Part shown: positions 35,628 through 52,471 of the stretch, one piece after another | Numbering within the stretch: position 1 is the first letter of the stretch | Layout of the letters: each line of letters opens with the position of its first letter | Assembly: GCA_035640355.1 (NCBI GenBank) | Contig: DASQWI010000009.1 | Span: forward strand, 62,001 to 126,000 | DNA: 64,000 bases | Reading direction: 5' to 3' | Source: Actinomycetota bacterium | Lineage (GTDB): Bacteria; Actinomycetota; UBA4738; HRBIN12 | Program-made: the position numbers and the translations under genes | Notes under the pieces: model-generated | What the model saw: only the letters and a program-made list of their open reading frames with translations | Told to the model about the DNA's origin: nothing | Databases searched by the model: none

Positions 35628-37253
35628 GTGGCTGAACGCAAGGTGGGCTCGGTTACCTACCGGGAGGTCGACGAGGAGTACTTCAAGCAACGGGGCCTCA
35701 GGCGCCATGCCGGCGTCTGGGCGCTCTGGGCGCTCGGTGTCGGCGCCGTCATCTCCGGCGACTTCTACGGCTGGAACTTCGGCCTGTCGACCGCGGGCTT
35801 CGGGGGCCTGGTCATCGCGACGGTTCTCATCGCCGTCATGTACTACGGCCTCTGTTACAGCATCGCCGAGATGTCGCCGGCCCTGCCACATACGGGCGGC
35901 GCGTATTCGTTCGCGCGGTCGGCGATGGGCCCGTGGGGCGGGTTCCTGACCGGTCTGGCCGAGAACATGGAGTACGTGATCACACCGGCGGTCGTCGTCG
36001 GCGCGATGGGTTTGCTTATGCAGTCCCTCGTCGTGTCGATCTTCGACGTCGCCGGCGACCCATGGTGGAACAGCGAGCCCGTCTGGTGGGCGATCTTCTA
36101 CGTCATCTTCGTCGGGATCAACATCATCGGCATCGAGGCGACGATGCGGTTCACAATCGCGATCACCGTCCTGGCGCTCGCGGTCCTGGCCATCTTCTAC
36201 GTCGCGGCACTGGTCAGCGGAGACTTCGACACGAACCTCTGGTTCAACATTCCCAAGGACTGGGCAGCGACCCCCGAAACGACCAACCAGCTACTCGCGG
36301 AAGGCGGCGGGCCGTTCCTCCCGTACGGCATCGGCGGGATCTTCAAGGCCTTGCCGTTCGCCATCTGGTTCTACCTCGCAATCGAGGAGATCCCGCTCGC
36401 GGCCGAGGAATCGATGGACCCTCGGCGTGACGTCCCCAAGGGAACGATCTGGGGGATGCACACGCTGGTCCTGACGGGCGCGCTCATCCTCCTGCTGAAC
36501 AGCGGGGTCGGCGGCGGCGCCGGCGCCATCGGCATCTCCGGAACCCCTCTCTTCGACGGTTTCATCGGCATCTTCGGCGAGGGCTTCGCCGCGGAGCTGC
36601 TCGCGCTGTTCGGACTGATCGGTCTCATCGCGAGCTTCTTCACGATCATCTACGCCTACGGCCGGAACACGTTCTCGCTGTCGCGCGCCGGGTACTTCCC
36701 GAAGTTCCTCTCGGTCACGCACGGCGTGAGGCAGACCCCGCACGTGGCGCTGATCGCCGGAGCCGTCGTTGGATACCTCGTGGCGCTCATCGTCTGGTAC
36801 CTCGGGCGTCAGGAGGGCGACTACGCGGCGCAGATCGTCGCGGCGTTGCTCTACATGGCGGTCTTCGGTGCCGTCATCTCGTACGCGCTGCAGTGCCTCT
36901 CGTTCATCATGCTGAGACGGAACCTGCCGAACATCGACCGGCCGTACCGCAGCAAGTGGGGGGTTCCGGGCGCAGCCGTGGCAGGCATCATCGCGCTGGT
37001 CTCCCTCGTGACGATGTTCACGAACGACGACTACCGTCCCGGCCTGTACGGGGTGGCCATCTACTACGTCCTCGGCGTGCTCTACTTCGCCATCGCCGGA
37101 CGCCACCGCCTGGTGCTGTCGCCCGAGGAGGAGTTCGCGCTGACGAAGGGAGAACGCGGGGTTCCGCAGAAGTCATACGAGACATCGGAGGCAGCACAAG
37201 AGGAGATTCTGCGAGGCGCACGCGAGGAGACGCCTCGACAGGTCCCGAACTGA
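35628..37253 (+). CDS. APC-superfamily ethanolamine-type permease
   Basis: 541 residues, about twelve membrane helices. The GTG at 35628 sits eight bases after AAAGGAGGGG; upstream in-frame starts lack a site. The N-terminal DEEYFKQRGLRRHAGVWALWALGVGAVISGDFYGWNFG region and helix 6-7 IWFYLAIEEIPLAAEES are characteristic of the ethanolamine permease (EutP/Eat) branch. The adjacent gamma-glutamyl ligase after a strong hairpin supports amine uptake for gamma-glutamylation. Related short amines cannot be excluded. Confidence 0.88.
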   Translation: MAERKVGSVTYREVDEEYFKQRGLRRHAGVWALWALGVGAVISGDFYGWNFGLSTAGFGGLVIATVLIAVMYYGLCYSIAEMSPALPHTGGAYSFARSAMGPWGGFLTGLAENMEYVITPAVVVGAMGLLMQSLVVSIFDVAGDPWWNSEPVWWAIFYVIFVGINIIGIEATMRFTIAITVLALAVLAIFYVAALVSGDFDTNLWFNIPKDWAATPETTNQLLAEGGGPFLPYGIGGIFKALPFAIWFYLAIEEIPLAAEESMDPRRDVPKGTIWGMHTLVLTGALILLLNSGVGGGAGAIGISGTPLFDGFIGIFGEGFAAELLALFGLIGLIASFFTIIYAYGRNTFSLSRAGYFPKFLSVTHGVRQTPHVALIAGAVVGYLVALIVWYLGRQEGDYAAQIVAALLYMAVFGAVISYALQCLSFIMLRRNLPNIDRPYRSKWGVPGAAVAGIIALVSLVTMFTNDDYRPGLYGVAIYYVLGVLYFAIAGRHRLVLSPEEEFALTKGERGVPQKSYETSEAAQEEILRGAREETPRQVPN

Positions 37254-37276
37254 GCGCTCGAGCGAACGGATCGATT

Positions 37277-37312
37277 CGGACGGCGGGCCCGCGAACGCGG
37301 GCCCGCCGTCCG
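37277..37312 (+). terminator. Very strong GC hairpin between permease and GS-like gene
   Basis: Arms 37277-37293 and 37296-37312 are perfect 17-base inverted repeats around a central AA (CGGACGGCGGGCCCGCG and its complement). Only GTTTG follows, so it is not a textbook T-tract terminator. It may end or attenuate the permease transcript before the gamma-glutamyl ligase operon. Confidence 0.75.
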
Positions 37313-37371
37313 TTTGACAGCCCGAGCGCACCGTTCTCTCATAGCCGCGATCCCGATCCGCGGAGGCGAAC

Positions 37372-38757
37372 GTGACAGCGAACACCGGAACGCTCGACGC
37401 CAAGCAACTCGAGGAGCTTGCCGAGCTGGGCCAAGTCGACACGGTCCTGTGCATGTTCACCGACCTCCAAGGGCGGTTCATGGGCAAGCGCGTCGTGCCC
37501 CACTTCTTCCTGGAGGAGATCCTCGGCGAGGAAGGGCTCCACGCCTGCCTGTACCTGCTGGCCATCGACATGGAGATGGAGCCGCTCCCCGGCTACCAGT
37601 ACGCGAGCTGGGAGACGGGCTACGGCGACTTCCGAATGATCCCGGACCTGTCGACGCTCCGGTGGTGCCCCTGGCTCGATAAGACGGTCATGGTGATCTG
37701 CGACATCGCGGACGAGGAGACGCGCGAGCCGGTCGAGGTGTCGCCTCGGCAGATCCTGAAGCGGCAGATCGAGCGCGCCGCCGCGGCCGGCTACACGATC
37801 AAGACTGGATCCGAGCTCGAGTTCTACCTGTTCCAAGACGGATTTCGAGAGCTAGCGGAACGCGGGTACCGCGGTCTGCGTCCCTCCTCTCCGTACATCA
37901 TGGACTACCACATGCTCCAAACCACTCGCGACGAGTGGGTCATCCGTCAGATCCGCAACGGCATGTTGGGCGCCGGCATCCCCGTGGAGTTCAGCAAGGG
38001 TGAGTTCGGCCGGGGCCAGCACGAGATCAACATCACGTTCTCCGACGCGCTGTCGAACGCCGACCACCACGCGCTCTACAAGCACGGCGTGAAGGAGATC
38101 GCCGAGATCAACGGCGTCGCCGCCACGTTCATGGCCAAGTGGACGATGGCCGAGGCGGGTTCGAGCTGTCACCTGCACTCGAGCGTGTGGAACGCCGACG
38201 GCTCCGAGAGCCTCATGTGGGACGAGAACGGCGAGCACCACATGAGCGACACGTACAGGTGGTACCTCGGCGGCCTCATGGCGTGCGCCCGAGAGATGGC
38301 GTGGATGTACGCGCCGTTCGTGAACTCCTACAAGCGCTACCAGCTCGGGTCGTGGGCACCGACAGCCATCGTGTGGAGCCGTGACAACCGCACGTGCGGA
38401 TTCCGAACGGTCGGGGAACACAAGGGCTCGCGCGTCGAGTCGCGCATACCCGGCGCCGACGCGAACCCCTACCTCGCGTTCGCGGCGACGATCGCCGCCG
38501 GACTGTGGGGCATCGAGAACAAGATCGAGCCACCGGCGATCTTCCGGGGCAACGCGTACGAGGCGAAGGATGTGCCGCGCGTGCCGTTCTCGCTGCACGA
38601 GGCGATCGAGACCTTCCGCGACAGCCAGGTGGCGCAGAAGGCGTTCGGCACGTTCGTGTTCGAGCACCTGTTGAACACCGCCGTCCAGGAGCAGGTCATC
38701 TTCGACAACACGACGGTGACGGATTGGGAGCTCGCCAGGTACTTCGAGCGCGGCTGA
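37372..38757 (+). CDS. Glutamine-synthetase-like gamma-glutamyl ligase, probably gamma-glutamylethanolamide synthetase
   Basis: 461 residues, GS fold. Metal and ATP residues are kept: GSELEFYL, KGEFGRGQHEINI, the flexible SSCHLHSSVW segment with His, NSYKRY, and the C-terminal RVESRIPGADANPYL with Glu and Arg. The N-terminal beta-grasp begins VDTVLCMFTDLQGRFMGKR. Such GlnA3/GlnA4-type enzymes attach glutamate to amines rather than ammonia. The ethanolamine-type permease upstream and the amidotransferase-fold hydrolase downstream suggest the substrate is ethanolamine or a similar amine, as for Streptomyces GlnA4; that is inference. Confidence 0.87.
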   Translation: MTANTGTLDAKQLEELAELGQVDTVLCMFTDLQGRFMGKRVVPHFFLEEILGEEGLHACLYLLAIDMEMEPLPGYQYASWETGYGDFRMIPDLSTLRWCPWLDKTVMVICDIADEETREPVEVSPRQILKRQIERAAAAGYTIKTGSELEFYLFQDGFRELAERGYRGLRPSSPYIMDYHMLQTTRDEWVIRQIRNGMLGAGIPVEFSKGEFGRGQHEINITFSDALSNADHHALYKHGVKEIAEINGVAATFMAKWTMAEAGSSCHLHSSVWNADGSESLMWDENGEHHMSDTYRWYLGGLMACAREMAWMYAPFVNSYKRYQLGSWAPTAIVWSRDNRTCGFRTVGEHKGSRVESRIPGADANPYLAFAATIAAGLWGIENKIEPPAIFRGNAYEAKDVPRVPFSLHEAIETFRDSQVAQKAFGTFVFEHLLNTAVQEQVIFDNTTVTDWELARYFERG

Positions 38758-38782: not shown

Positions 38783-39508
38783 GTGACGCCGATCCTGCTC
38801 GTCCGCAATGACGGGTTCGAGACCTTCGGCGTGGCTCCCGGCGCGCTCGCCCGCGCGGGCATGGACCTCGTCACGGCGAACCTGACCGACCCGACTGTCG
38901 AACTGCCTCCGCTCGACGACGTCGCCGGCGTCATCACGTTCGGGGGAACCGTCAACGTCGACCAGGTCGACCAGTACCCGCAGCTCGGCGCGGTGCGGCA
39001 GTACACGCGCGAGGCCATCGACCGCGGCGTGCCGTACCTCGGCATCTGTCTTGGATCGCAGATCCTTGCCCGAGCGCTCGGGACCGAGGTCGTGAAGGGC
39101 CCAGTCAAGGAGGTCGGGTTCGAGCCGGTGCGGCTCACATCCGACGCGAAGGAGGACGCGCTCCTCTCGTTCCTCGAACCGGAGGAACGAGTGATGCAGT
39201 GGCACGAGGACACGTATGCCCTCCCGGAGGGTGCAACGCTGCTCATCACCGGAGACCGCATCCCGGTTCAGGCATTTCGCGTCGGCGAGACCGCGTGGGG
39301 CGTGCAATTCCACCTCGAGGTCGAGGCGTGGGAGCTCGCCTGGTGGATCGAGTCGGCGGACGCCGCGATGGACCTCAAGTCCACGTGGGGCAAGTCGGCC
39401 GATGAGATCCGGGCGGAGGCCGAACGCCACATCGAGCGGCACGAGGAACGGGGACGGGAGATCTTCGCGCGCTTCACCGACGTCGTGCGTACGAACACAC
39501 AGGGATAG
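38783..39508 (+). CDS. Class I glutamine amidotransferase-like hydrolase (A)
   Basis: 241 residues with a complete Cys-His-Glu triad: Cys89 in LGICLGSQILA, His177 and Glu179 in GVQFHLEVEAW. It has no synthetase domain, so it hydrolyses or transfers a gamma-glutamyl group by itself. Encoded 25 bases after the gamma-glutamyl ligase, it probably releases glutamate from gamma-glutamyl products of the pathway. The oxyanion Gly region is TFGGTVNVDQ. The alternative is a free GMP-synthase-like amidotransferase domain of unknown role. Confidence 0.87.
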   Translation: MTPILLVRNDGFETFGVAPGALARAGMDLVTANLTDPTVELPPLDDVAGVITFGGTVNVDQVDQYPQLGAVRQYTREAIDRGVPYLGICLGSQILARALGTEVVKGPVKEVGFEPVRLTSDAKEDALLSFLEPEERVMQWHEDTYALPEGATLLITGDRIPVQAFRVGETAWGVQFHLEVEAWELAWWIESADAAMDLKSTWGKSADEIRAEAERHIERHEERGREIFARFTDVVRTNTQG

Positions 39509-39547: not shown

Positions 39548-40567
39548 ATGACCGACCTGAACGTCGTCACGTATCGCCCCGAGCGCGCCGAGTACGCGTG
39601 GACCTTCGGCGGCGCCGCACCCGTGATGAAGGTCAAGCCCGGCGACGTCTTGGAGCTGTGGACCGACGACTGCTTCGGCGGCCTGATCGAGACCGTCGAT
39701 GACATGCCTTCGGACAAGATCACCGCATTCAACCCTCAGACTGGACCGTTCCACGTCGAGGGCGCCGAACCAGGCGACACGCTCGCGTTGCACTTCGTGT
39801 CGCTCGAACCCGCGCGGGACTGGGCGGTGTCGACGACGTTCCCGCTGTTCGGCTCGCTCACGTCGACCCTTCGAACGGTGACCTTGCAGGACGCCCTTCC
39901 GGAGATCGTGTGGCGCTACGAGGTCGACCGTTCACGCGGCACGGTTCGGTACGAAGCGCGGAACGGCGACCAGACCATTGATCTTCCCCTCGAGCCGATG
40001 CACGGGACCGTCGGCGTCGCGCCGGCAGGGGGCGAGGCGCGTTCGTCGCTGGTCCCCGACGCGCACGGCGGCAACATGGATACGCCCGAGATGTGCGCCG
40101 GCTCGACGTGTTACCTCGGCGTCAACGTCGAAGGCGCCCTGTTCTCGATCGGCGACGGTCACTACCGGCAGGGCGAGGGCGAGACCTGCGGCGTCGCCGT
40201 GGAAGGCGCGATGAACACCGTCCTCGTCGTGGACCTGATCCCCAGCCGAGCGACGCCATGGCCGCGCCTGGAGAACGACGACTACATCATGTCGACGGGT
40301 TCGGCGCGCCCGCTCGAGGACGCGTTCCGGATCGCGCACGGCGACCTGGTGATGTGGCTCGCCGAGGAGTTCGGGTTCGAGAAGCTCGACGCCTACCAGC
40401 TCGTCTCGCAGATCTCCGAGAGCCCGGTGGCGAACGTCTGTGACCCCAACTACACGTTCGTGGCGAAGGCTCCGAAGCGGTACCTGCCGCGCTCGGACGT
40501 CTACGCCTCGACCCGGGGCCGCCTGAAGGAGATGGCAGCCGAGTACATGAGCCGGCGCGACGCCTAG
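39548..40567 (+). CDS. Acetamidase/formamidase family protein
   Basis: 339 residues of the FmdA/AmdA family. Conserved features are the N-terminal VKPGDVLELWTDDCFGG, the PHGGNMD-like DAHGGNMDTPEM segment, CYLGVNVEGALFSIGDGH, and GVAVEGAMN. Catalysis in this family needs a bound zinc and a Glu. AAGGAGG precedes the ATG at 39548. It releases ammonia from short amides; within the amine island it may deal with a formamide or amide by-product. Confidence 0.9.
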   Translation: MTDLNVVTYRPERAEYAWTFGGAAPVMKVKPGDVLELWTDDCFGGLIETVDDMPSDKITAFNPQTGPFHVEGAEPGDTLALHFVSLEPARDWAVSTTFPLFGSLTSTLRTVTLQDALPEIVWRYEVDRSRGTVRYEARNGDQTIDLPLEPMHGTVGVAPAGGEARSSLVPDAHGGNMDTPEMCAGSTCYLGVNVEGALFSIGDGHYRQGEGETCGVAVEGAMNTVLVVDLIPSRATPWPRLENDDYIMSTGSARPLEDAFRIAHGDLVMWLAEEFGFEKLDAYQLVSQISESPVANVCDPNYTFVAKAPKRYLPRSDVYASTRGRLKEMAAEYMSRRDA

Positions 40568-40568
40568 A

Positions 40569-40669: not shown

Positions 40670-42244
40670 ATGGCTACGAAAGCCGACGAGCACATGATCT
40701 CCGAGAGGGTCGCGCCGGTCCTCGTCGCCAGGACGCTCGGGGCCTTCGACCTTGTGGTGATCTTCGTTGCAATTGTGCTGTTCATCAACAACGCGGCCGG
40801 CGTGCAGTTCGCTGGACCGTCCGTGTTCATCTTCTGGATCCTCGCGTTCCTGACGTTCCTCATCACTGGTGCCTTTGTGACCGCGCAGCTCGGGCGGATG
40901 TTCCCGGAGGAGGGATCGCTGTACGTCTGGACGCACAAGGTGCTCGGACCGTTCTGGGGGTTCTTTGCCGGCTTCGTCGCGTGGTGGCCCGGCCCGATCT
41001 CGCTGGTGTTCATCGGAGTCCTCTTCGCCAACTACCTGCAGCAAGCCGCCGTGTTCATCAACCCGGATTGCGAGTTTCCGTGCCTCTTCACGGAGAACTG
41101 GCAGATCGGTGTTGTCGTCCTGGTCGTGATCTGGTTCAGCGCGCTGATGTCTTATCTGAAGATGCGCGTCACGATGAACTACGTGAACGTCCAATTCTTC
41201 GCGTACGTCACGGCGATCTTCCTGATCGGGTTCGCCGGGGTGTGGTGGCTGCTCCAGGGCAACGGCACGTCCACGGACTTCGGCGCGGGATGGAACCCCT
41301 TCCACGGTGAAACGTTGGCCCTTGGCCTGCCGGCGAATCTCACGTTCTTCTCGTTCGCGATCCTCGCGCTGTTGGGGATCGAGACGCCGCTGAACATGGG
41401 CGTCGAGGTATCGGGCGGCGAGCGCGCTATCCGAACGTTCCTGCTCTGGGGCTGCGTGATCGTGATCGCCGCATACCTCTGGGCGACTTGGGGGAACATG
41501 GTCGTCATCGAGGCCGGCGGCGCGAACGGGACCACCGGCGGGATCGAGACCGTCGGTCTCGCGCTCGGCAGATGGCTCGGTGCGGCGGTCGGGCTCGTCC
41601 TGGCGTGGGTCGTGTTGACGGTCGCGGTCGTCTACAACTTCTCGTTCGGACGCCTGCTGTTCGTCTCCGGACTCGAGCGTCGCCTGCCCCACCAGATCGG
41701 GAAGGTCAACCGCAATCAGGTGCCCGCTATCGCGATCACGCTCCAGAGCGTGATCTCCACGGTGATCGCGGTCGTCGTGTTCATCATCCTTGGCGCAGGC
41801 GAAAGCGACCCGTACCGATACTTCTACGCGCTCTACGCCGGCGTGACGATCGTGTGGTGCTTCTCGACCGCGCTGCTGTTCCTGGACATCTTCTTCGCGG
41901 AACGCGCAGCCCCGCGACGGTTCGAGGAGGCGCGTCGCGTTTCCCGGTCGGTCCTGAACCTCAGCGGGGCCATCGGGTTCATCGCGAACATCCTGGCGGT
42001 CCTGTTCATCTTCGTGGGCTCGTGGTACCCGATCTCCGATGCGAACCCGACCGGCTGGGAGCTCGGGGATTGGAACGTATGGATGGTGGGGATCACCGTG
42101 GTGTCGGTCGTCACCGGCATCGTGATCTACCTCATCTCCCAACAGACCCGCCGCCGCATGAGCGACGAGGAGCTGATAGCGCGGGGTGTCGCCCAGGAGG
42201 AGATCGCCCAGGACATGCCGCGCGGCGTCGAGCCGACGACGTGA
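40670..42244 (+). CDS. APC-superfamily amino acid/amine permease
   Basis: 524 residues, about twelve to fourteen membrane helices; AGGGAGGGG precedes the ATG. Helix 1 is LGAFDLVVIFVAIVLFINNAAG and helix 6 is FFSFAILALLGIETPLNMGVEVSGGERA, which place it among glutamate/GABA-antiporter or YfnA-like APC transporters. It is distinct from the ethanolamine-type permease at 35.6 kb and may import another amine, or exchange a product for substrate. Two Cys (about 131 and 135) lie in an external loop. Confidence 0.9.
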   Translation: MATKADEHMISERVAPVLVARTLGAFDLVVIFVAIVLFINNAAGVQFAGPSVFIFWILAFLTFLITGAFVTAQLGRMFPEEGSLYVWTHKVLGPFWGFFAGFVAWWPGPISLVFIGVLFANYLQQAAVFINPDCEFPCLFTENWQIGVVVLVVIWFSALMSYLKMRVTMNYVNVQFFAYVTAIFLIGFAGVWWLLQGNGTSTDFGAGWNPFHGETLALGLPANLTFFSFAILALLGIETPLNMGVEVSGGERAIRTFLLWGCVIVIAAYLWATWGNMVVIEAGGANGTTGGIETVGLALGRWLGAAVGLVLAWVVLTVAVVYNFSFGRLLFVSGLERRLPHQIGKVNRNQVPAIAITLQSVISTVIAVVVFIILGAGESDPYRYFYALYAGVTIVWCFSTALLFLDIFFAERAAPRRFEEARRVSRSVLNLSGAIGFIANILAVLFIFVGSWYPISDANPTGWELGDWNVWMVGITVVSVVTGIVIYLISQQTRRRMSDEELIARGVAQEEIAQDMPRGVEPTT

Positions 42245-42287: not shown

Positions 42288-43463
42288 CTATACCGTCAGG
42301 CCATGGAGCCGGCGGCAGGCGCCGGCGAGGACGAACGCCCCCAGCGTGTGCGCTTCGTCCGCGGTGACGTAGTCGCGATCGACGAATCCTGACAATGCCC
42401 GTTCGAGGCACGATCGGGCGAGCAAGGCGGACGCCCAGAACGCCTCCGGCTCTCCGGCCTCGTCCGAGCCGTACAGCAGCTTCGCCGCCGGAACGGTTCC
42501 CACCAGCATCTCCAGAGCCCACTCGACCTGTCCCCATCCCCATGGGATCAGCTCGGAGAGCTCGAGATAGACGTTCGGCAGGACCGAGGCGACGTATGCC
42601 GCCTCGCGCACCCACGGGTAGCCCGAGTGGATGAGAACGACGGGTTGATCCTGAACGTCGACGAGAAGCGGAAAGATCGATATCGGCGATGCGTGCGCGA
42701 GGTTGATGTCGGGATCGCCACCGCCGCAGTGGAAGTGGAACGGCCGGTCGTGCTTCTTCGCGATCTCGAGGGTCCGCCGGATCAGGAAATCGCGGACCGG
42801 CTTGGCGTGCTGTCGCTTCTCCGTCCACGAGTCGTTGCGCCAACGGGAGAACGCGTCCGCAGCCTCCGTCGCGCTCGGGTCGCCGACGTCCAGACCGGTG
42901 CGGTAAGCGACGATCGACTTGAACGCGACGCAGTTCGGATCGGACGCCGCGTCGGTCGCCTCGGCTTCGACGCCACCGATGAGCTCGTCGAACGAGCCGT
43001 CCCGGTGAAGGAGGATCCACGGCTCGAGCCGCGCGACGCGATGAACGGTTACGCCGACCGTCTTGGAGAACTCGTCGGCCGGGATGGGCGGCTGCGGGAA
43101 GCCCTCGTCGGAAAGCACGGCGACGATGCCTGCTGCATCGAGCAGCCCCTTGGTGTACCCGGCGGCGTCGTTCTCGATCGCCCCGGCGCGCGCCGTGGTG
43201 ACCGCGTCTCGCGTCGGCTCGCACCCGAGGTGCTCGGCGAGCCATCGCCGCATCGCCAACGCGAAGACTGTGGAATCGGTGAACGAGTCGGCGATCGACC
43301 ACAGGTCGTCGTGGACGTGAGAGGACGACGAGAACGCTTCGCCGAGGAACATCATCCGCGTGTCGAAACCCTCCGACGAACGCGAGACGAGGTCATCGAG
43401 GCGGTAGGGATGGACGTGCGCGTCGACGATCTCCACCTCGGAGAGGTCAATCGTCTTCGCCAT
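42288..43463 (-). CDS. Amidohydrolase related to the FluG N-terminal domain
   Basis: 391 residues, TIM-barrel amidohydrolase (COG2159-like). Metal motif VDAHVHPY is near residue 14, FHFHCGGGDPD supplies a strand-5/6 His, VLIHSGYPW a further His, and LLYGSDEAGEP the final Asp. It starts at the base after the stop of the upstream GS-like gene (TAGATG). In FluG-type proteins the same amidohydrolase and GS domains are fused, so these two genes look like the split form. Likely action on a gamma-glutamyl or amide intermediate is inference. Confidence 0.87.
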   Translation of the reverse strand: MAKTIDLSEVEIVDAHVHPYRLDDLVSRSSEGFDTRMMFLGEAFSSSSHVHDDLWSIADSFTDSTVFALAMRRWLAEHLGCEPTRDAVTTARAGAIENDAAGYTKGLLDAAGIVAVLSDEGFPQPPIPADEFSKTVGVTVHRVARLEPWILLHRDGSFDELIGGVEAEATDAASDPNCVAFKSIVAYRTGLDVGDPSATEAADAFSRWRNDSWTEKRQHAKPVRDFLIRRTLEIAKKHDRPFHFHCGGGDPDINLAHASPISIFPLLVDVQDQPVVLIHSGYPWVREAAYVASVLPNVYLELSELIPWGWGQVEWALEMLVGTVPAAKLLYGSDEAGEPEAFWASALLARSCLERALSGFVDRDYVTADEAHTLGAFVLAGACRRLHGLTV

Positions 43464-44945
43464 CTAGTACTTCCACCGATGCGCGCGAACCGCTTCTTCC
43501 GGATCCATGTCCTCGTAGGCGTCGCGTTCGGCGCGACGCGTCGCGACGAACGCGTCGAACAGCACGTCGCCCATCGCGCGACGGAGCATCTCCGACGCCT
43601 CGAGCTCCTTGATCGCCTCACCGAGCGTCGCAGGTAGCTGACGGACACCGAGCCGCCGCCGCGCCTGTTCGTCCAGGTCGGCGGGATCGTCGAGCACGGG
43701 CTGGGGAAGCGACAGGTCGCGTTCGAGCCCGTCGATGCCGGCAGCGACGATCGCTCCGAGTGCCAGGTACGGGTTCGCCGCCGGATCCATCGACTTCACT
43801 TCGAGGTTGGCGGCTTGCGCGCGGCCGCCGACCATTCCCGTGATGAACCGCAGTGCAGCTTCGCGGTTCTCCCTCCCCCACGCCGCCCACGGCCCGCTCC
43901 AGCGATGCGGCTGGAGGCGCTGGTAGCTCACCACCGAAGGAGCCGTGATCGCGGTGAGCGCCGGCAGCGCGTCGAGGATCCCCGCGGTGAACGCCTCGGC
44001 CTCGCGCGTCATCCCTTCGGGTCCGCGACCTCTGTCGAACAGGTTCCGCCCTCGACGGTCCCAGATGCTCAGATGCAGATGGGCGCCGTTCCCGACGAGC
44101 CCCGCCCACACGACCGGTGCGAACGACGCCGCGAAGCCGTGCGTCCTGGCGACGGCGCGGATGGTGTGCCGGACGACCAGGTTCGTGTCGGCGATCGAGA
44201 TGCCCGGAACGTGAGGCACCGACAGCTCGAGCTGCCCGGTCGAGTACTCGGGATGGAACTGCATCACGCCTGTGCCCTGCGCCTCGAACGCGCGGATCAG
44301 CGAGGTGGCGAACGGCTCGACGTCGACGAGCGCGATCGACCCGTAGGCCGGGCCGTTGTGAGCCGGAACGGGATCGGTCTCGCCCTCGGAGGTGAAGGTT
44401 CGCCGGCCGAGGAAGAACTCCACCTCGTAGCCGCCGCGCAGCTCGAATCCCGCCGCTCCGAGGCGATCAATCGTCGTGCGAGCGAACGTGCGTGGACAGG
44501 CCGGGTACTCCTTACCCTCCTGATCGAGCTGGTCCACCGGCGCGAGCGCCCAGCCCGGGCTCGCCGCGAGCGGGACGGTCGCTGACGGATCGGGCATCAG
44601 CCGGGTGTCGCCGACGGGTCCGTGGATGTGCGGCGACGAGGTGATGTTGTCGTCGAACAGGAACACGCTGAATACGGGCGACAATCCGATACCGAAGCGC
44701 ACGGCTTCTTCGAAACGACGCAGCGGGATCGTCTTCACGAGCGTCACGCCGGCCGTATCGACGATCGGCAGTGCCACGGCCTCGACGCCGGCGGCGGCGA
44801 GCCGGCGGGCGACCCGCGCCGCCGCGTCCGAACGAGTTCGTGCGCCGCGACGAGTCGACGTTCCGCGTCGAGGCGAAGGCCCGACTCTGCGCGTGGAGGA
44901 GGCGCTCTTGCGAGTCGTTCGGCGGCGGCCTGCGCCGTCCGTCAT
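43464..44945 (-). CDS. Glutamine-synthetase-like ligase of the FluG type
   Basis: 493 residues. A basic, Arg/Ser-rich tail of about 38 residues precedes the beta-grasp. Catalytic-domain landmarks are GGYEVEFFL, GQLELSVPHV, the HLHLSIW segment, HRWSGPWAAWGRENREAALRF and LEVKSMDPAANPYLAL. In the last motif the usual E-x-R of glutamine synthetases reads E-V-K. It lies second in a minus-strand trio with another GS-like gene upstream and the amidohydrolase downstream. It should ligate glutamate to an amine other than ammonia. Confidence 0.86.
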   Translation of the reverse strand: MTDGAGRRRTTRKSASSTRRVGPSPRRGTSTRRGARTRSDAAARVARRLAAAGVEAVALPIVDTAGVTLVKTIPLRRFEEAVRFGIGLSPVFSVFLFDDNITSSPHIHGPVGDTRLMPDPSATVPLAASPGWALAPVDQLDQEGKEYPACPRTFARTTIDRLGAAGFELRGGYEVEFFLGRRTFTSEGETDPVPAHNGPAYGSIALVDVEPFATSLIRAFEAQGTGVMQFHPEYSTGQLELSVPHVPGISIADTNLVVRHTIRAVARTHGFAASFAPVVWAGLVGNGAHLHLSIWDRRGRNLFDRGRGPEGMTREAEAFTAGILDALPALTAITAPSVVSYQRLQPHRWSGPWAAWGRENREAALRFITGMVGGRAQAANLEVKSMDPAANPYLALGAIVAAGIDGLERDLSLPQPVLDDPADLDEQARRRLGVRQLPATLGEAIKELEASEMLRRAMGDVLFDAFVATRRAERDAYEDMDPEEAVRAHRWKY

Positions 44946-44960: not shown

Positions 44961-46289
44961 TCAGAACAGCTCGAGGTACTCGGTCCGCTCCCAGTCCGAG
45001 ACCGCATCCTTGAACCGCGACAGCTCGTACCGCCGCATCGTCGTGTACGCGGCAACGAACTCCTCACCGAAGAACTCCTTTGCCGCCGGCTCCTGCTCGA
45101 GCGCGTCCAGGGACTCCTCGAGGTCGGTCGGCAGCTTCTCGAACGAGTCGTCGTCCTCCGCCGGCACGCCGGGCTTCGAAGGCTCGGGAGCGGGAAGGCC
45201 CTCCTCGATCCCTCGGAGACCGGCTTGGATGAGCGCAGCGCCCACGAGATACGGGTTCGACAGCGCCGATGGCGCACGGTATTCGACGTGCCTGCTTTCC
45301 GGCGTGCCCCCCTTCACTCGCACGAGCGCCGAACGATCCTCTTGACCCCACGAGATGTTCGTGGGGCTGAACGTGTGGCGCCGCCTGCGACGCAGGCAGT
45401 TCACCGTCGGCGCGATGACTGCGTCGATCTCCCGGGCGTACTTGAGCAATCCGCCGATGAACGACCGAGCCGCTTCGGTCAACCCGTCGGCCGCATCTGG
45501 ATCACCGAACGCGTTCTCCCCGGACTCGGCGTTCACGAGCGAGAGGTGCGTGTGGCACCCGCTCCCGGCCGAATCGCTCCACGGCTTGCTCATGAACGTC
45601 GCGAGGTAGCCGTCCTGCTTGGCGATCTCCTTCACGCCGTTCTTGAACGTGAACGCATCGTCCGGCCCGGCGAGCCCGCTGCCGGGAGCGAAGTTGATCT
45701 CCCACTGCGAGCCGGCGTACTCACAGTTCGACGTGATGATGTCGACCCCTGCCTGTGGCATCTCGTCGAGGATCCGCCTGATCGTCGGGACGTAGTCGTT
45801 CCGAACGGTGTTGAAGATCTGGTACCCCGAGAACAGCGGCTCGTGCGTCTCGGGCGTGAGGAGGTAGAACTCGAACTCAGAACCCATTACCGGCTCGAAC
45901 CCCATCGAACGGGCCTTTTCGAGCGCCCGACGGAACACGTGACGCGGGGTCGCCGCGAGCGGCTGACCGTCGTACCACGTCGCGTCGCAGATGAACCGAG
46001 CCGTTCGGTCAGCCCACGGGATCACCGTCGCCGAATTCGGATCGGGAAACAGCAGCTGGTCCCCGTATCCGCGCTCCTCGTGGTAGAGCGTGCTCGGCAC
46101 GACGTCGGAACGCGAATCGAGCACGCTGGTCCCCCCGTACATGTTCAGCCCTCGCGAGGCGTAATCGGTCGCGTGGGCGATCGGGATCGTCTTCGACCGC
46201 GAGATCCCGTGCATGTCCGGGAGCTCGAAACGGACGTATCCGATCCCGTCCTTCCGCCAGTCCTCGAGGACCTGCTCGACCTCCGCCAT
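44961..46289 (-). CDS. Glutamine-synthetase-like gamma-glutamyl ligase
   Basis: 442 residues. The ATG at 46289 has a GAGGAGGAG site. The beta-grasp YVRFELPDMHGISRSKTIP leads to GSEFEFYL, EYAGSQWEINF and SGCHTHLSL, then an unusual run of Arg in NCLRRRRRHTFSP, and finally HVEYRAPSALSNPYL. All main metal-binding Glu and His are present. It is the first gene of the minus-strand trio and is divergent from the aminotransferase operon at 46401. Substrate unknown; the Arg cluster at the ammonium/amine side may reflect an anionic or larger amine. Confidence 0.87.
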   Translation of the reverse strand: MAEVEQVLEDWRKDGIGYVRFELPDMHGISRSKTIPIAHATDYASRGLNMYGGTSVLDSRSDVVPSTLYHEERGYGDQLLFPDPNSATVIPWADRTARFICDATWYDGQPLAATPRHVFRRALEKARSMGFEPVMGSEFEFYLLTPETHEPLFSGYQIFNTVRNDYVPTIRRILDEMPQAGVDIITSNCEYAGSQWEINFAPGSGLAGPDDAFTFKNGVKEIAKQDGYLATFMSKPWSDSAGSGCHTHLSLVNAESGENAFGDPDAADGLTEAARSFIGGLLKYAREIDAVIAPTVNCLRRRRRHTFSPTNISWGQEDRSALVRVKGGTPESRHVEYRAPSALSNPYLVGAALIQAGLRGIEEGLPAPEPSKPGVPAEDDDSFEKLPTDLEESLDALEQEPAAKEFFGEEFVAAYTTMRRYELSRFKDAVSDWERTEYLELF

Positions 46290-46400: not shown

Positions 46401-47771
46401 GTGCCTGAGACGTTCATTGAGAGCCGGCGTTCGCACGTGTTGCCTCTCGAGCTAACCAAGCCCATGCCGGTCGTCGCTCGCGGCGAGGGCGTGTGGATCG
46501 AGGACTCGTCCGGCCGCCGTTACCTCGACGCGATGAGCGGCGGCTCCATGGCGGCCACGCTCGGACACGGGCGCCGCGACATCGTCGCTGCGGCCCGGGC
46601 ACAGGCCGAGAAGCTCGCGTTCGTCCACAACGAACGGCTGACGAACCCGCTGCAGGAACGGCTCGCAGCCGAGCTCGTCGACGTCGCGCCCGAGGGGTTC
46701 ACGCGGGTGCGCTTCACGGTGAGCGGTGCCGACGCCAACGAGATGGCGATCCAGCTCGCGCGGAGCTATCACGTCGAGCGCGGCGAGCCCGAGCGGTGGC
46801 AGGTGATCTCGCCGACGCAGGCGTACCACGGGCCCACTATGGAAACGCTGGCGCTCACCGGACGACCTGGATTGCACGGCCCGTTCGGCCCGTACATGCC
46901 TGATCACCTCCACATCCCGCCGAGCACGTGGCGGTTCGACCCGTCCGGCCGGGCGGCGCTCGACGCGCTCGATGCGGCGATCGACGAGGCTGACGGAACA
47001 ATCTCGGCGTTCTTCTGCGAACCGATCAGCGCCGCCGCACTCCCGGCATACACGCCGCCGGGCCGATTCTGGGAAGGACTCGCGGAGCGGCGTGAACGCC
47101 ACAGGTTCCTCGTCTGCTTCGACGAGGTCGTCACCGGCGTGGGGCGAACGGGAGGATGGTTTGCCGGGGCGGCAACGGCGTGCCCGCCGGACATCATCGC
47201 TACTGCCAAGGGCCTCGGGGCGGGGTACGCCGCCATCGGAGCCGTCCTCGTGCGCGATCGCGTGTACGACGCGATCGCGAACGGCTCCCGGAAGTTCACT
47301 CTGGGGCACACGTGGGACGGCGCGCCGCTCTCGTGCGCCGTCGGTCTGGCCGTGCTGAACGCGCTCCGGTCGGAGGGCCTGATCGAACGCGTCGCCGACC
47401 GCGGCCCTCGTCTGCGGGACGAGCTCGAGCGTTCGATCGGGGACGTCGCCATGGTCCGCGAGGTTCGAGGCCACGGCTACCTGCTCGGCGTCTCGTTCGT
47501 CGACCCTCGCGACGGCGAGAGCTTCCTGCCGCGCGAACTGCGGGTGGGCGGTCGCATCGACGAGGCGGCGTTCGAGAACGGACTGATCACCTTGTCCACG
47601 CAGCCGACCCGCGACGGCTACGCCGCCGACCAGACCCTGTTCGCGCCGGCGTTCACGGCGACCGACGACGACTTGGACGAGATGGTGTCGCGGTTCGCCG
47701 ACACCGTTCACCACGTGGCGAAAGAGATCGAGGCGGAGCTGGGGATGCTCTCGCCGACGGGAGGTTCCTAG
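46401..47771 (+). CDS. Class III PLP-dependent aminotransferase (paralog A)
   Basis: 456 residues. PLP residues: Asp241 in LVCFDEVVTGVGRTG and the Schiff-base Lys270 in ATAKGLGAGYA. Substrate-binding features include the FTVSGADANEMAIQLAR helix. GAGGAGG precedes the GTG at 46401. The enzyme is a close relative of paralog B at 48522: both share the VERGEPERW and PSTWRFDPSG blocks. Omega-amino substrates such as putrescine-, GABA- or beta-alanine-like amines fit the family. It heads an operon of aminotransferase, hydrolase, aminotransferase, ligase and hydrolase. Confidence 0.92.
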   Translation: MPETFIESRRSHVLPLELTKPMPVVARGEGVWIEDSSGRRYLDAMSGGSMAATLGHGRRDIVAAARAQAEKLAFVHNERLTNPLQERLAAELVDVAPEGFTRVRFTVSGADANEMAIQLARSYHVERGEPERWQVISPTQAYHGPTMETLALTGRPGLHGPFGPYMPDHLHIPPSTWRFDPSGRAALDALDAAIDEADGTISAFFCEPISAAALPAYTPPGRFWEGLAERRERHRFLVCFDEVVTGVGRTGGWFAGAATACPPDIIATAKGLGAGYAAIGAVLVRDRVYDAIANGSRKFTLGHTWDGAPLSCAVGLAVLNALRSEGLIERVADRGPRLRDELERSIGDVAMVREVRGHGYLLGVSFVDPRDGESFLPRELRVGGRIDEAAFENGLITLSTQPTRDGYAADQTLFAPAFTATDDDLDEMVSRFADTVHHVAKEIEAELGMLSPTGGS

Positions 47772-48503
47772 ATGGGGTCGACCGACCGACGCAAGCTGCG
47801 CGCGCTGATCCTTCAGCACGAGGATCCAACCCCGCCTGGCCACGTCATGGAGTGGCTCCGCTCACACGACGCCGAGATCGAGATCCTCCGGATCGACCTC
47901 GAGGACCGCGAGATCGATCCGACCGACTACGACCTCATCGTCTCGCTCGGATCGGAGTACGCAGCGTTCGACGACACGAAGACGTTCGTCGTCCGCGAGG
48001 CGACGCTGATGCGCCGAGCCGTCGACGATGACGTACCGATCCTGGGTTTGTGCTTCGGCGGCCAGCTGCTCGCTCGGGTGCTCGGTGCAGAGAACTACCG
48101 GGGCGAGGTGGCTGAGATCGGTTGGCTCCCCGTGCGGAGCGAGGACGCGCAGCTCGTTCCGGAGGGGCCGTGGTTCCAGTGGCACTTCGACACGTTCACC
48201 AAGCCACCCGGCGCGACGGTCATCGCAACGACCGACGCCGGATTGCAGGCGTTCGTGGCGGGTCGTTCGCTCGGACTGCAGTTCCACCCCGAGGTGACCA
48301 TGGACATCATGGACGAGTGGGTCCGCGTCTACCGCCATGAACTGGACGGCGACGGTGTCGATCCAGATGCGCTACTGGAGGAGACCAAACGGCTGGCGGA
48401 CGCGAGCAAACAAAACGCCTTGCAGCTGTTCGAGCACTTTTACAGCGACGTGGCCAAGCTCGATGAACGCGCCGAGGCCACGGACGAGCGCGCGGCGGGC
48501 TGA
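47772..48503 (+). CDS. Class I glutamine amidotransferase-like hydrolase (B)
   Basis: 243 residues; triad Cys94 in LGLCFGGQLLARVLG, His172 and Glu174 in LQFHPEVTMD. The ATG immediately follows the previous stop (TAGATG). It has no fused synthetase. Sandwiched between two aminotransferases and upstream of a gamma-glutamyl ligase, it is best explained as a gamma-glutamyl amide hydrolase that releases the product amine or acid from glutamate. The C-terminal 60 residues are helical and acidic. Confidence 0.87.
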   Translation: MGSTDRRKLRALILQHEDPTPPGHVMEWLRSHDAEIEILRIDLEDREIDPTDYDLIVSLGSEYAAFDDTKTFVVREATLMRRAVDDDVPILGLCFGGQLLARVLGAENYRGEVAEIGWLPVRSEDAQLVPEGPWFQWHFDTFTKPPGATVIATTDAGLQAFVAGRSLGLQFHPEVTMDIMDEWVRVYRHELDGDGVDPDALLEETKRLADASKQNALQLFEHFYSDVAKLDERAEATDERAAG

Positions 48504-48521
48504 CTCGGAGAGCCACGAAAC

Positions 48522-49862
48522 GTGACCGGGACGATCACATCCGACCGAACGAGCGTCTTCCCGCGATTCCTCGACCTTCCGTACCCGAACGTCGAACGCG
48601 GCGAAGGCGTATGGCTCGTCACCTCGGAAGGCGAACGCGTCATCGACGCGTCGTCCGGCGGGGCGATGGTGACGTGCCTCGGATACGGCGTCCCCGAGAT
48701 CGTTGCCGCGGCAGCCGAGCAGGCCGATCGCATCGCGTACTTCTACAACCATCACTTCACGAGCGAACCTGCCGAGCGTTACGCCGACCGCCTGCTCGAG
48801 GTCGCCGCCCCAGAGATGTCGCGGGTGCGGTTCGTCTCGGGAGGTTCAGAGGCGAATGAGACCGCTCTGCAGCTCGCTCGCCTGTATCAGGTAGAACGCG
48901 GCGAGCCCGAACGCTGGCGGGTGATCTCGCCGGCACAGAGCTACCACGGCTCGACGATGGGAACGCTCGCGCTGAGCGGTAGAAGCGCCGTGCAGGAGCC
49001 CTACGCCCCGTATCTGGCGAACCACCTGCACATCTCGCCGAGCACGTGGCGGTTCGATCCGTCGGGGGAAGCGGCTCTTCGCGAGCTCGACCGAGCGCTC
49101 CAAGAGGCGCAGGGCACGGTCGCCGCCTTCTTCTGCGAACCGATCAGCGCGGCCGCGCTTCCCGCCTACTCGGCCCCGGATGCGTTCTGGCTGGGACTCG
49201 ACGAACGGCGCCGAGAGCACGGGTTCCTCGTTTGCTTCGACGAGGTGGTCACGGGTTTCGGCCGGGTGGGGAGTTGGCTCGCCGCTCACCAGCTGCCGAT
49301 CGAGCCCGACATCGTCGCGGTCGGCAAGAGCCTTGGCGCGGGCTACGCGCCGCTTGGGGGCGTGATGTGCCGTCGACACGTCTACGACGCGATCGAGGCC
49401 GGCTCCGGAGAGTTCGACCTCGGTCACACCTGGGACGGCGCGCCCCTTTCGACGGCGGTCGGCCTGGCGGTCCTCGAGGCGATGGTCGAGAAGGCGCTGG
49501 TCGACCGCGTTCGCGGCCGTGGACCGCGTCTGCGACAGGAGCTCGAGGCGGCCGTCGGTTCGTTTGAGATCGTCCGGGAGGTTCGCGGCCGCGGGTTCTT
49601 GCTCGGGATCGAGCTCGTCGATCCTCGCGACGGCGGATCCTTCTTGCCCGTCGAGCTCCCCGTCGACGAGCTCGTCGATCGGACCGCGTTCGAGCACGGC
49701 GTGCTCGTGACGTCGACCCATCCGCAGGCGGACGGGCTGGCCGGCGATCAGGTCCTCCTTGCGCCTGCCTACGTGAGCACCGACGACGAGCTCTCTCAGA
49801 TGATCGAGCGCTTCTCTGCGGCCCTAAACGTCGTCGAGAGAAAGATCAAGGCCTCCCTGTGA
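48522..49862 (+). CDS. Class III PLP-dependent aminotransferase (paralog B)
   Basis: 446 residues. Asp240 in LVCFDEVVTGFGRVG and Lys269 in AVGKSLGAGYA bind PLP. Sequence blocks are shared with paralog A along the whole length, so the pair arose by duplication with the hydrolase gene between them. Differences near the active site (FYNHHFTSE here, VHNERLTNP in paralog A) suggest different substrates. It overlaps the downstream ligase start as GTGA. Confidence 0.92.
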   Translation: MTGTITSDRTSVFPRFLDLPYPNVERGEGVWLVTSEGERVIDASSGGAMVTCLGYGVPEIVAAAAEQADRIAYFYNHHFTSEPAERYADRLLEVAAPEMSRVRFVSGGSEANETALQLARLYQVERGEPERWRVISPAQSYHGSTMGTLALSGRSAVQEPYAPYLANHLHISPSTWRFDPSGEAALRELDRALQEAQGTVAAFFCEPISAAALPAYSAPDAFWLGLDERRREHGFLVCFDEVVTGFGRVGSWLAAHQLPIEPDIVAVGKSLGAGYAPLGGVMCRRHVYDAIEAGSGEFDLGHTWDGAPLSTAVGLAVLEAMVEKALVDRVRGRGPRLRQELEAAVGSFEIVREVRGRGFLLGIELVDPRDGGSFLPVELPVDELVDRTAFEHGVLVTSTHPQADGLAGDQVLLAPAYVSTDDELSQMIERFSAALNVVERKIKASL

Positions 49863-51145
49863 CCACGCGCGAGGAGTTCGTCCTGCTCGGCGTTCCCGAC
49901 GTGCACGGCCAGATCCGGGGGAAGGCGCTTCGGCCGGACGCGTTCGAGACCGCCGTCGAGCGCGGCACCGTGATGACGGACCTGATCCTGGGGCTCGATC
50001 CAGTGGACGCGCCGATCACCGACTACGAGCGGTTCGGCATCAAAACGGGCGCGGCGGACCTGATCGTTCGTCCCGACACGGACACGTTGCGCGAGCTCGC
50101 GTGGCGGCCGGGATGGCGCGTGTGTCTCGCCACGCCGAGCTGGCCCGACGGGTCGCCGTGTGAGCTCTCATCACGCGAGGTCTTCCGGTCCATCGTCCAC
50201 GACGTTTCGTCGCTCGGGCACGAGGTGATGTCGGCGATCGAGTACGAGATCCGGATCTGGGACGCGCAGGGCGCGCCGACCTCGACGGGCGTCAGCTACT
50301 CGCTTCAGGAGATCGGCGGCTACGAGGGATTCCTGGCCGACCTCGTTCCCGCGCTCGAGAGCCTCGGGATCGAACTGTCGGCGGTTCACACCGAGGCGGG
50401 GCCGGGTCTTCTCGAGCTCAACGTGAAGCCTCGACGGGGGATCGCTGCGGCCGACGACGCCGCGCTGTTGAAGTTCGGGGTCAAGCACGTCGCCGCGTCA
50501 CGCGGGCTCCGCGCCAGCTTCCTGGCGAAGACGAACCCGGGCGAGGAAGGGTCGAGCGGCCACGTCCACATGTCGTGCTGGACGGACGACACGAACGCGT
50601 TCGCGGCGGGAGATCCCTCGGCCGAGGCCCCCGCGGTGTTCGCTTCGGCGATCGGCGGCGTGGTCGAGCACCTCCCGGCAGCTTCGCTCCTCCTCAATCC
50701 CACCGTGAATTCCTATAAGCGCCTCGTCCCCGGTTGGTTCGCCCCGATCAACGCGACGTGGGGGTACGAGAACCGGTCGTGCGCCGTCCGCGCGATCCGT
50801 TCTGAGCGAGAAGACCTGTGGCGGTTCGAGTGCCGAAGGCCGGGAGCCGACGCGAACCCGTATCTGGCGCTCGCGGCGATCGCGGCATCCGCGGCCGACG
50901 GCATCCGAAGGCAAGCCAAGCCGCCGGAGCCGATCGAGGGCGACGCGTACGCGCGACCCGATCTCCCGGGGCTACCGGGTTCGCTCGAAGCCTCTCTGCG
51001 TGCGTTCGAAGCCGATGCCGTCCTCCGACGGGCGTTGGGCGAGGGCTTCAGCGAGTACTACGCCACGTCTCGCGCGTGGGAGTTGAAGGCATGGCGCGAG
51101 ACGGTGACCGACTGGGAGCGAGAGCGGTACGAGCGGGCGGTATAG
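49859..51145 (+). CDS. Glutamine-synthetase-like gamma-glutamyl ligase
   Basis: 428 residues. The short beta-grasp begins EEFVLLGVPDVHGQIRGKAL. Catalytic landmarks are AIEYEIRIW, GPGLLELNVKPRRG, the SGHVHMSCW segment, NSYKRLVPGW and FECRRPGADANPYLAL, so Glu and Arg residues are kept. It is the shortest of the four GS-like proteins in the window. In a standard gamma-glutamylation route it would act first, capping the amine before the aminotransferases act and hydrolases remove the cap. Confidence 0.87.
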   Translation: MTTREEFVLLGVPDVHGQIRGKALRPDAFETAVERGTVMTDLILGLDPVDAPITDYERFGIKTGAADLIVRPDTDTLRELAWRPGWRVCLATPSWPDGSPCELSSREVFRSIVHDVSSLGHEVMSAIEYEIRIWDAQGAPTSTGVSYSLQEIGGYEGFLADLVPALESLGIELSAVHTEAGPGLLELNVKPRRGIAAADDAALLKFGVKHVAASRGLRASFLAKTNPGEEGSSGHVHMSCWTDDTNAFAAGDPSAEAPAVFASAIGGVVEHLPAASLLLNPTVNSYKRLVPGWFAPINATWGYENRSCAVRAIRSEREDLWRFECRRPGADANPYLALAAIAASAADGIRRQAKPPEPIEGDAYARPDLPGLPGSLEASLRAFEADAVLRRALGEGFSEYYATSRAWELKAWRETVTDWERERYERAV

Positions 51146-51151
51146 CCGAGG

Positions 51152-52471
51152 GTGACCGGGTACCGGCCGCTCGTCGCCGTCGTCGCGTATCACCTCGCGG
51201 ACGATCGCGTTCCCCGGTGGCCACACGGCGGATACGGGGTTCCGGGACCGTATCTCGATCGGTTGCGTGCGGCGGGCGCTCGCACCGCGATCATCTCGCC
51301 GAGCGAGAGCGGCGCCGCCGAGGAGATCCTCGAACCGTTCGACGGGCTGATGCTGGTCGGCGGCGGTGACGTGGACCCCAGCCGCTACGGACAGGAGCCG
51401 AGCGAGAACATCTACGGCGTCGAGCCCGACCGAGACGCGCTCGAGATCGACGTCCTGCACGCGGCGGACGAGCTCGGCATCCCCACGCTCTGCATCTGTC
51501 GCGGCATGCAGATCATGAACGTGGCGTTCGGCGGCACGCTCCTGCAGCACCTTCCGGAAGTTCCGGGGACCCAGGAGCACGGCACGCCGGTCGCGGACGA
51601 ACGCACCCTGCACGAGGTTCGTAGCGACGAACGGAGCCACCTGCGCGCCACGACGGGGGTCGAGGTGATCTCGTGCTCGTCACACCATCATCAAGCGCCC
51701 GACCGGATCGGTGAAGGCCTCCTCGCCACGGGATGGACGGCCGACGGCATCGTGGAGGCGATCGAACGCGAGCGCGACGACCAAGACGAGCGTCCGTACG
51801 AGGCGGGGTGGATGCTCGGCGTTCAGTGGCACCCGGAGGACACTGCTGCGAGTGATCCGGCACAGCAGTCGTTGTTCGATGCGCTGTCGAACCTGGCGCG
51901 GTGGCGTGGCTCACGCGCGAAGCCGGGCGTCCGCGGCGGACGCAACCGCGAGTACGGGCTCGTCGACTACGACACGGCGTGGCCGACGATGTTCGAGGAG
52001 GAGTCCGCGCGGATTCGCGCGGCGCTCGGTGACGTCGCCGCGCGTATCGAGCACGTCGGATCGACAGCGGTACCGGGTCTCGCCGCCAAGCCCGTGATCG
52101 ACATCCAGGTCTCGGTGCGATCGATGATGCCTCGGGACCGGTTCGTCGCTCCCCTCGTCGGACTCGGGTACGAGTTCCGGCCCGACCCCATCGACACGGA
52201 GCACGAGTACTTCAAGAAAGAAGAGAACGGGGTCCCGACGTACCAGATCCACGTGTGTCCCGTGGGAAGCGAGTGGGAACGGCGGCATCTGGCGTTCCGC
52301 GACCATCTCCGGGTGAATCCCGTCGACGCTGTTCGATACGCGGAGCTGAAGCGGCGCCTGGCGGCGGAACATCCGCGCGACATCATTGCGTACGTCGAGG
52401 GCAAGACGCCCTTCATCCGCGAGGTCGAGCGGCAACGGGTCGGTTCAGCGGAGCGAAGGCTCGGGTCGTAG
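51152..52471 (+). CDS. PuuD-like gamma-glutamyl hydrolase fused to a GrpB domain
   Basis: 439 residues, two domains. Residues 1-255 are a peptidase C26 class I amidotransferase domain: VGGGDVDPSRYG, nucleophile Cys116 in LCICRGMQIMN, HHHQAPD, and His227-Glu229 in VQWHPED, as in gamma-glutamyl-GABA hydrolase PuuD. Residues about 268-430 are a GrpB (UPF0157) nucleotidyltransferase-fold domain: VDYDTAW, EHVGSTAVPGLAAKPVIDI and the final helices. The frame is continuous. GrpB domains usually stand alone or join CoaE, so the fusion is unusual. It closes the aminotransferase operon. Confidence 0.9.
   Translation: MTGYRPLVAVVAYHLADDRVPRWPHGGYGVPGPYLDRLRAAGARTAIISPSESGAAEEILEPFDGLMLVGGGDVDPSRYGQEPSENIYGVEPDRDALEIDVLHAADELGIPTLCICRGMQIMNVAFGGTLLQHLPEVPGTQEHGTPVADERTLHEVRSDERSHLRATTGVEVISCSSHHHQAPDRIGEGLLATGWTADGIVEAIERERDDQDERPYEAGWMLGVQWHPEDTAASDPAQQSLFDALSNLARWRGSRAKPGVRGGRNREYGLVDYDTAWPTMFEEESARIRAALGDVAARIEHVGSTAVPGLAAKPVIDIQVSVRSMMPRDRFVAPLVGLGYEFRPDPIDTEHEYFKKEENGVPTYQIHVCPVGSEWERRHLAFRDHLRVNPVDAVRYAELKRRLAAEHPRDIIAYVEGKTPFIREVERQRVGSAERRLGS

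Follow-up and report, generated by a model that had tools for sequence, protein, structure and literature searches.

An actinobacterial gene island predicted to bundle parallel gamma-glutamylation routes for amine catabolism

Several bacteria carry sets of gamma-glutamyl ligases related to glutamine synthetase (GS), among them PauA1–A7 of P. aeruginosa (PMC5403932) and GlnA2, GlnA3 and GlnA4 of S. coelicolor (PMC8998196, PMC6529630). Loss of the ammonia-site residues is the published argument for the amine ligase function of GlnA4 and PauA7 (PMC6529630), and the gene architecture described for ethanolamine gamma-glutamylation comprises an RpiR regulator, an N-formylglutamate-amidohydrolase (FGAH)-type hydrolase, a permease, a GS, an aldehyde dehydrogenase (ALDH) and an iron alcohol dehydrogenase (PMC10132767, PMC6529630). 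Here we describe an island of four GS-like genes in a window of 64,000 nucleotides, the whole stretch of DNA analysed, from an uncultured, soil-type Actinomycetota bacterium (assembly GCA_035640355.1, contig DASQWI010000009.1, positions 62,001 to 126,000). The window has a GC content of 67% and lies on contig C9 of the genome, which totals 2.79 Mb; among the genomes compared, its closest relatives come from Actinomycetota assembled from metagenomes (AC_66, KatS3mg013, bacterium HR12 and others). An earlier reading of the DNA (the original prediction) held that several gamma-glutamylation routes appear bundled here, and set this against known routes with one ligase and one hydrolase. The latter statement is too narrow in view of the Pau and GlnA sets: ligase multiplicity is already known, and the bundling is the unusual part.

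We interpret the region from approximately 28662 to 52471 as an amine-catabolism island of parallel gamma-glutamylation routes, designated A, B and C, and consider this interpretation somewhat better than even. It encodes four GS-like ligases (GS1–GS4), three class I amidotransferase (GATase)-fold hydrolases (GAT1–GAT3), two class III aminotransferases (AT1 and AT2), two permeases (perm1 and perm2), an amidase and an amidohydrolase. All are real open reading frames (ORFs) where the original prediction placed them, and Pfam agrees: the ligases score 280–316 bits with Gln-synt_C, and GATase or Peptidase_C26 domains are assigned to the three hydrolases. The borders first drawn were too narrow, as the conserved unit reaches left to about 28662; positions 28662–35550 hold an ALDH, a short-chain dehydrogenase (SDR), a GntR regulator and a unit of kinase, aldolase and alcohol dehydrogenase (ADH). 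Nor do the hydrolases lack synthetase partners, each sitting in a gene run that contains a ligase. Gene identities, ligase residues, tree and conserved gene order agree. As far as gene identity and conservation go, the bundling of parallel routes is well supported; the gene identities, the lost ammonia site, the conserved gene order and the operator-like palindrome described below can be read directly from the DNA.

Four of the seven GS-family genes in the genome lie within 14 kb inside the island. Across 149 Actinomycetota genomes, seven members of the source family have 6–10 such genes and two others have 2–3, while most genomes outside the family have 1–3 and none exceeds six, a count reached in genomes of about 6 Mb.

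Alignment of the four ligases with E. coli GlnA revealed replacement of E327 by W or F in all of them. D50 and Y179 are likewise replaced; the one exception is GS2, which has a D around position 50 in a stretch where its alignment is uncertain. The metal and ATP residues E129, E131, E212, E220, H269, H271, R339, R344 and E357 are retained throughout, and R359 is K in GS2. Two GS genes on contig C19 have D50, Y179, E327 and the metal/ATP residues all intact. In an IQ-TREE phylogeny of sequences other than PauA7 and those of C. salexigens, GlnA and GlnA2 split from the island ligases with support of 100/97. GS1 clusters with two ethanolamine-type GS proteins, one from S. meliloti and one from T. 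roseum (97/93; 55% to the latter), and GS2 with a GlnA3-like protein of S. hokutonensis (100/100; 48% identity). GS3 belongs to a clade (100/99) that joins a plasmid protein of Rhizobium sp. ACO-34A (100/98). GS4 makes up its own long-branched clade (100/100; branch 1.62), which lies close to the ethanolamine types and IpuC (96/83); PuuA lies on a long, weakly placed branch (48/15). An identity as ammonia-using GlnA was rejected on the lost residues and the placement outside GlnA, as the original prediction had expected, and GS1–GS4 are supported as probable gamma-glutamyl-amine ligases that do not use ammonia. Two of the ligase clades that the tree defines, those of GS3 and GS4, are uncharacterised, and their operon partners are conserved. 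Outside the island lies another divergent GS-like gene, the fifth (L005; G000:C17:2929-3897), whose product has lost E327, has N in place of H271 and sits on a very long branch.

Route A can be read as a complete ethanolamine or amino-alcohol route within the window, comprising perm1, GS1, the SDR, the ALDH and GAT1. The permease is 54% identical to the annotated eat of T. roseum. The SDR is 61% identical to that of the T. roseum GS-SDR-eat cluster, where the GS1 relative lies, and 50% identical to that of the GlnA4-like GS-ALDH-SDR set of Streptomyces. The ALDH shares 49% identity with the enzyme beside the GlnA4-like GS of S. hokutonensis, 43% with a YJN-5 plasmid ALDH and 38% with PuuC. The S. 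meliloti relative of GS1 lies in a cluster with the ethanolamine architecture outlined above. No EutB was found in the source genome. We suggest that perm1 brings in ethanolamine or a closely related amino alcohol and that GS1 uses ATP to couple it to glutamate. The hydroxyl end of the product would be oxidised to a carboxylate, first by the SDR and next by the ALDH, and GAT1 would cleave off glutamate, freeing glycine or an analogue. Of the substrates first guessed at (polyamines, ethanolamine and an omega-amino acid), an ethanolamine-type route, previously left incomplete, can thus be assigned quite specifically, here in a little-studied, uncultured actinobacterial order.

Route B centres on the run AT1-GAT2-AT2-GS4 (46401-51145). 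This order is kept in the taxonomic order of the source (genomes G003, G004, G007, G008, G010, G011, G013 and others), in two Thermoleophilia metagenome-assembled genomes (MAGs), where GAT2 and AT2 are separated by a GntR gene, and in at least 10 Chloroflexota MAGs, one of them also with an intervening GntR gene. The genes are therefore conserved together in relatives rather than scattered. AT1 and AT2 are paralogues (57% identity), and AT1 is 53% identical to an aminotransferase that adjoins a GS-like gene on a Paenarthrobacter plasmid, in a simpler ALDH-AT-GS module near a C26 hydrolase. GS3 follows GS4 in Thermoleophilia, one Chloroflexota genome and G026; in the window, in Thermoleophilia and in several Chloroflexota, a PuuD-type C26 hydrolase gene comes after GS4 or faces it. 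The ALDH gene neighbours GS4 in three genomes (G004, G007 and G008); in G003, as in the window, it neighbours the SDR gene. No island protein matched a PuuB-type FAD oxidase, and PDB name searches for hints to the AT1 substrate returned generic relatives only.

Read most simply, these genes would form a Puu-like route for a diamine in which a transaminase replaces PuuB. GS4, and probably also GS3, would cap one amine of a diamine-like substrate; AT1 would transaminate the free amine, an ALDH shared between routes would oxidise the aldehyde, GAT2 or GAT3 would remove glutamate, and AT2 would transaminate the resulting omega-amino acid. We infer the substrates, the order of steps and the sharing of the ALDH. 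An isopropylamine (IpuC) assignment of GS4 was rejected for want of an oxygenase, since Pfam identified neither a P450 nor a ferredoxin in the island proteins scanned.

Two observations concern the modules themselves. Both contig ends of G004 (L024 1-757 and L025 8392-9153) carry an ALDH gene with about 80% identity to that of the window, which suggests that two near-identical copies, one per module, broke the assembly. The module on plasmid pYJN5-2 of Paenarthrobacter sp. YJN-5 (L074, 12579-24060) is present twice, in inverted orientation; genes for the 5-oxoprolinase PxpA flank it, and IS21 elements lie close by.

Route C consists of GS2 and the adjacent amidohydrolase, a homologue of 2qpx, a structure that also matches the N-terminal part of FluG (PMC6478659). 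On homology and arrangement, 42288-44945 is a GlnA3/FluG-type pair, which is arranged like GlnA3-SCO6961 and corresponds to both halves of FluG (PMC5403932, PMC6478659), and may serve a polyamine (or aromatic amine) route. The pair had been taken as part of an undescribed combination; it is in fact of an already described kind. Some of the relatives have the pair and others lack it. G005 has a second, more divergent pair beside the first (L022 18209-19150 and 16698-18029), and G010 a divergent amidohydrolase next to its GS2 (L026 2287-3270), which suggests local duplication or exchange in a GlnA3-type route.

Table 1 Features of the island, with positions in the window.
Feature	Position	Strand	Basis
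ALDH, PuuC/gamma-glutamyl-aminoaldehyde type	28662..30101	-	PF00171 568 bits
SDR dehydrogenase, probable gamma-glutamylethanolamide dehydrogenase; likely start ~30200	30146..30979	+	PF13561 223 bits
FGGY carbohydrate kinase	31303..32823	-	PF00370/PF02782; nearest solved relatives xylulose kinase, AI-2 kinase
Zinc ADH, threonine/polyol dehydrogenase-like	32820..33935	-	PF08240/PF00107
Class I DhnA/LsrF-type aldolase	33872..34714	-	PF01791; nearest solved relatives MJ0400, LsrF
GntR/UTRA transcription regulator; true start probably ~35460	34711..35550	-	PF00392 + PF07702
Candidate GntR operator ATTTGTCGGACAAGC	35474..35488		Sole exact TTTGTCNGACAA in window and genome
perm1, ethanolamine-permease-family APC transporter	35628..37253 (ORF 35562/35628)	+	AA_permease_2; TIGR00908 367 bits
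GS1, putative gamma-glutamyl-amine ligase, ethanolamine (GlnA4-like) type	37372..38757	+	Gln-synt_C; tree; E327 to W
GAT1, class I GATase-fold, probable gamma-glutamylglycine (gamma-glutamyl amide) hydrolase	38783..39508	+	PF00117; Cys motif GICLGSQ, His/Glu motif GVQFHLE
FmdA/AmdA-family amidase	39548..40567	+	PF03069; 5ubu homologue
perm2, APC permease	40670..42244	+	PF13520 (AA_permease_2)
Amidohydrolase-2, GS2 partner, FluG N-terminal/SCO6961-like	42288..43463	-	PF04909 (Amidohydro_2); 2qpx homologue
GS2, putative GlnA3/PauA7/FluG-C-type gamma-glutamylpolyamine ligase	43464..44945	-	Gln-synt_C; tree; best PDB match PauA7 4hpp
GS3, putative gamma-glutamyl-amine ligase, own clade	44961..46289	-	Gln-synt_C; clade 100/99
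AT1, class III aminotransferase	46401..47771	+	PF00202 (Aminotran_3); catalytic Lys motif
GAT2, class I GATase-fold hydrolase	47772..48503	+	PF00117; position between AT1 and AT2 in relatives
AT2, class III aminotransferase	48522..49862	+	PF00202; AT1 paralogue
GS4, putative gamma-glutamyl-amine ligase, new clade; start overlaps AT2 stop	49859..51145	+	Gln-synt_C; clade 100/100
GAT3, PuuD-type C26 gamma-glutamyl hydrolase fused to GrpB domain	51152..52471	+	PF07722 166 bits + PF04229 170 bits; PuuD-like GVQWHPE motif; 32% to PuuD

The gene at 39548 had been called a formamidase. Its family, FmdA/AmdA, holds, but formamidase proper was rejected at 63 bits against an FmdA cut-off of 500. An ORF at 30124-30876 (-) was discarded as the antisense of the SDR. 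In GAT3 the C26 hydrolase and GrpB (UPF0157) domains are fused in frame; in G003 (L018) and G007 (L096) the hydrolase is likewise followed by GrpB, which was not found in G008. Directly to the right of the island, 54056-57370 (-) encodes a 1104-residue protein with a zinc ribbon, a nucleotide cyclase domain, AAA_16 and TPR repeats.

The left part of the island includes a divergent operon, GntR-aldolase-ADH-FGGY kinase, facing perm1. Its aldolase-ADH-FGGY trio faces or adjoins perm1 in most members of the family; beyond the family, it does so in one further genome of the order and in five genomes from two other families. Between GntR and perm1 lies the palindrome TTTGTCNGACAA, which occurs nowhere else in the window (0.01 occurrences expected) or in the rest of the genome; near-identical sites stand at the corresponding promoter position in 12 other genomes. 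In G008, perm1 and GntR are about 25 kb apart, with one site before each. The position of the palindrome, and its presence once per operon in G008, tie perm1 to the kinase/aldolase operon. GntR presumably binds the palindrome at 35474-35488, a candidate operator through which it would control perm1 and its own operon. This links amine gamma-glutamylation to a sugar-type kinase/aldolase operon under one putative GntR operator, a widely conserved association. A tblastn search with the aldolase against plasmids gave no match, PDB name searches for substrate hints from the FGGY kinase and the aldolase returned generic relatives only, and no literature on the kinase/aldolase/GS combination was found.

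Several points weigh against three parallel routes. The aldolase, zinc ADH and FGGY kinase have no role in them; these genes share an operon with AT1-GS4 in Chloroflexota and are divergent from perm1 elsewhere, and no further operator turned up upstream of AT1 in the window. For route A, the grouping of GS1 with the GlnA4-like GS has support of only 87/69, perm1 falls 15 bits short of the TIGR00908 ethanolamine-permease cut-off of 382, and known ethanolamine clusters have an FGAH-type hydrolase rather than a class I GATase; no island protein matches the FGAH of S. meliloti, a class I GATase standing in its place. Every substrate named for the island, moreover, is our deduction.

One alternative, which we regard as unlikely, is that unrelated amine, amide and sugar genes have gathered in a nitrogen-scavenging region and are co-inherited without a joint pathway. 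The variable presence among relatives of GS2 with its amidohydrolase and perm2, of the FmdA-family gene and of GAT3 would fit such a loose neighbourhood, as would the location of the set on separate contigs in G007, G010 and G013. It is harder to reconcile with a four-gene order fixed across phylum-level distance, overlapping genes, a single conserved operator and an ALDH that moves between two modules.

Another rather doubtful alternative is one pathway for one substrate, in which perm1, GS1, GS4, the aminotransferases and the aldolase-ADH-FGGY trio jointly break down an amino-polyol, or else an amino sugar alcohol. Gamma-glutamate would cap its amine, and the chain would be oxidised by the ADH, phosphorylated by the FGGY kinase and cleaved by the aldolase, giving dihydroxyacetone phosphate and a gamma-glutamyl aminoaldehyde that ALDH and GAT would finish. 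In five Chloroflexota genomes GntR-aldolase-ADH-FGGY-AT1-GAT2-AT2-GS4 is one unit by gene order, its genes, including FGGY and AT1, overlapping or nearly so; perm1 heads AT1-GAT2-AT2-GS4 at three loci (L057, L069 and L070), L046 carries perm1-GS1-AT1-GAT2-AT2-GS4 as a single run, and the GntR operator joins perm1 to the aldolase operon. Yet the five genomes outside the order (families f5 and f16) pair perm1 with the trio and have no AT1 or GS4, Thermoleophilia have AT1-GAT2-GntR-AT2-GS4-GS3 without the trio, and no known compound requires the set. An amino-polyol substrate would, speculatively, explain the kinase and aldolase. The fuller version, a gamma-glutamyl-protected amino-polyol route with the zinc ADH, FGGY kinase and DhnA-type aldolase acting on the chain, two aminotransferases and GS4 on a second amine, and one regulon conserved from Actinomycetota to Chloroflexota, strikes us as improbable. 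Least likely by far is that the GS-like genes encode glutamine synthetases, or else gamma-glutamyl ligases of biosynthesis (amidoligases that make a natural product or a solute). NCBIfam matches to GlnA, GlnA type III and PuuA, all below cut-off, speak for this; against it, the ammonia-site residues are lost, the proteins branch outside GlnA, and their neighbours are importers, hydrolases, ALDH and aminotransferases, with no biosynthetic core.

We therefore retain the interpretation of parallel routes, in which the GS4 operon and the kinase/aldolase link are the main points of interest. Route A resembles the GlnA4 pathway of S. coelicolor (PMC6529630) and of C. salexigens and Phaeobacter (PMC10132767) in its permease, GS-like ligase without an ammonia site, alcohol dehydrogenase, ALDH and gamma-glutamyl hydrolase, the SDR, ALDH and GS being homologous to the Streptomyces set; it differs in the class of its hydrolase, in the added GntR and aldolase/ADH/FGGY operon and in the three further ligases around it. 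Route C shares with GlnA3-SCO6961 and fungal FluG a GlnA3-like ligase next to an Amidohydro_2 gene, but unlike the FluG fusion it comprises two separate genes, with the amidohydrolase just downstream and a larger island around. The Puu putrescine pathway of E. coli likewise has a GS-like ligase, a PuuC-family ALDH, a PuuD-type C26 hydrolase (here GAT3) and a class III aminotransferase, whereas the island has two sister aminotransferases, no PuuB oxidase homologue and a GS4 in its own clade. GS4 (about 36% to IpuC) and AT1 recall the isopropylamine route and the YJN-5 plasmid, from which the island differs in gene order, in its second aminotransferase and in having no P450/ferredoxin oxygenase. 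With PauA1–A7 of P. aeruginosa (PMC5403932) it shares many parallel gamma-glutamyl ligases in one organism, but here four of them are packed within 14 kb of a 2.8 Mb genome.

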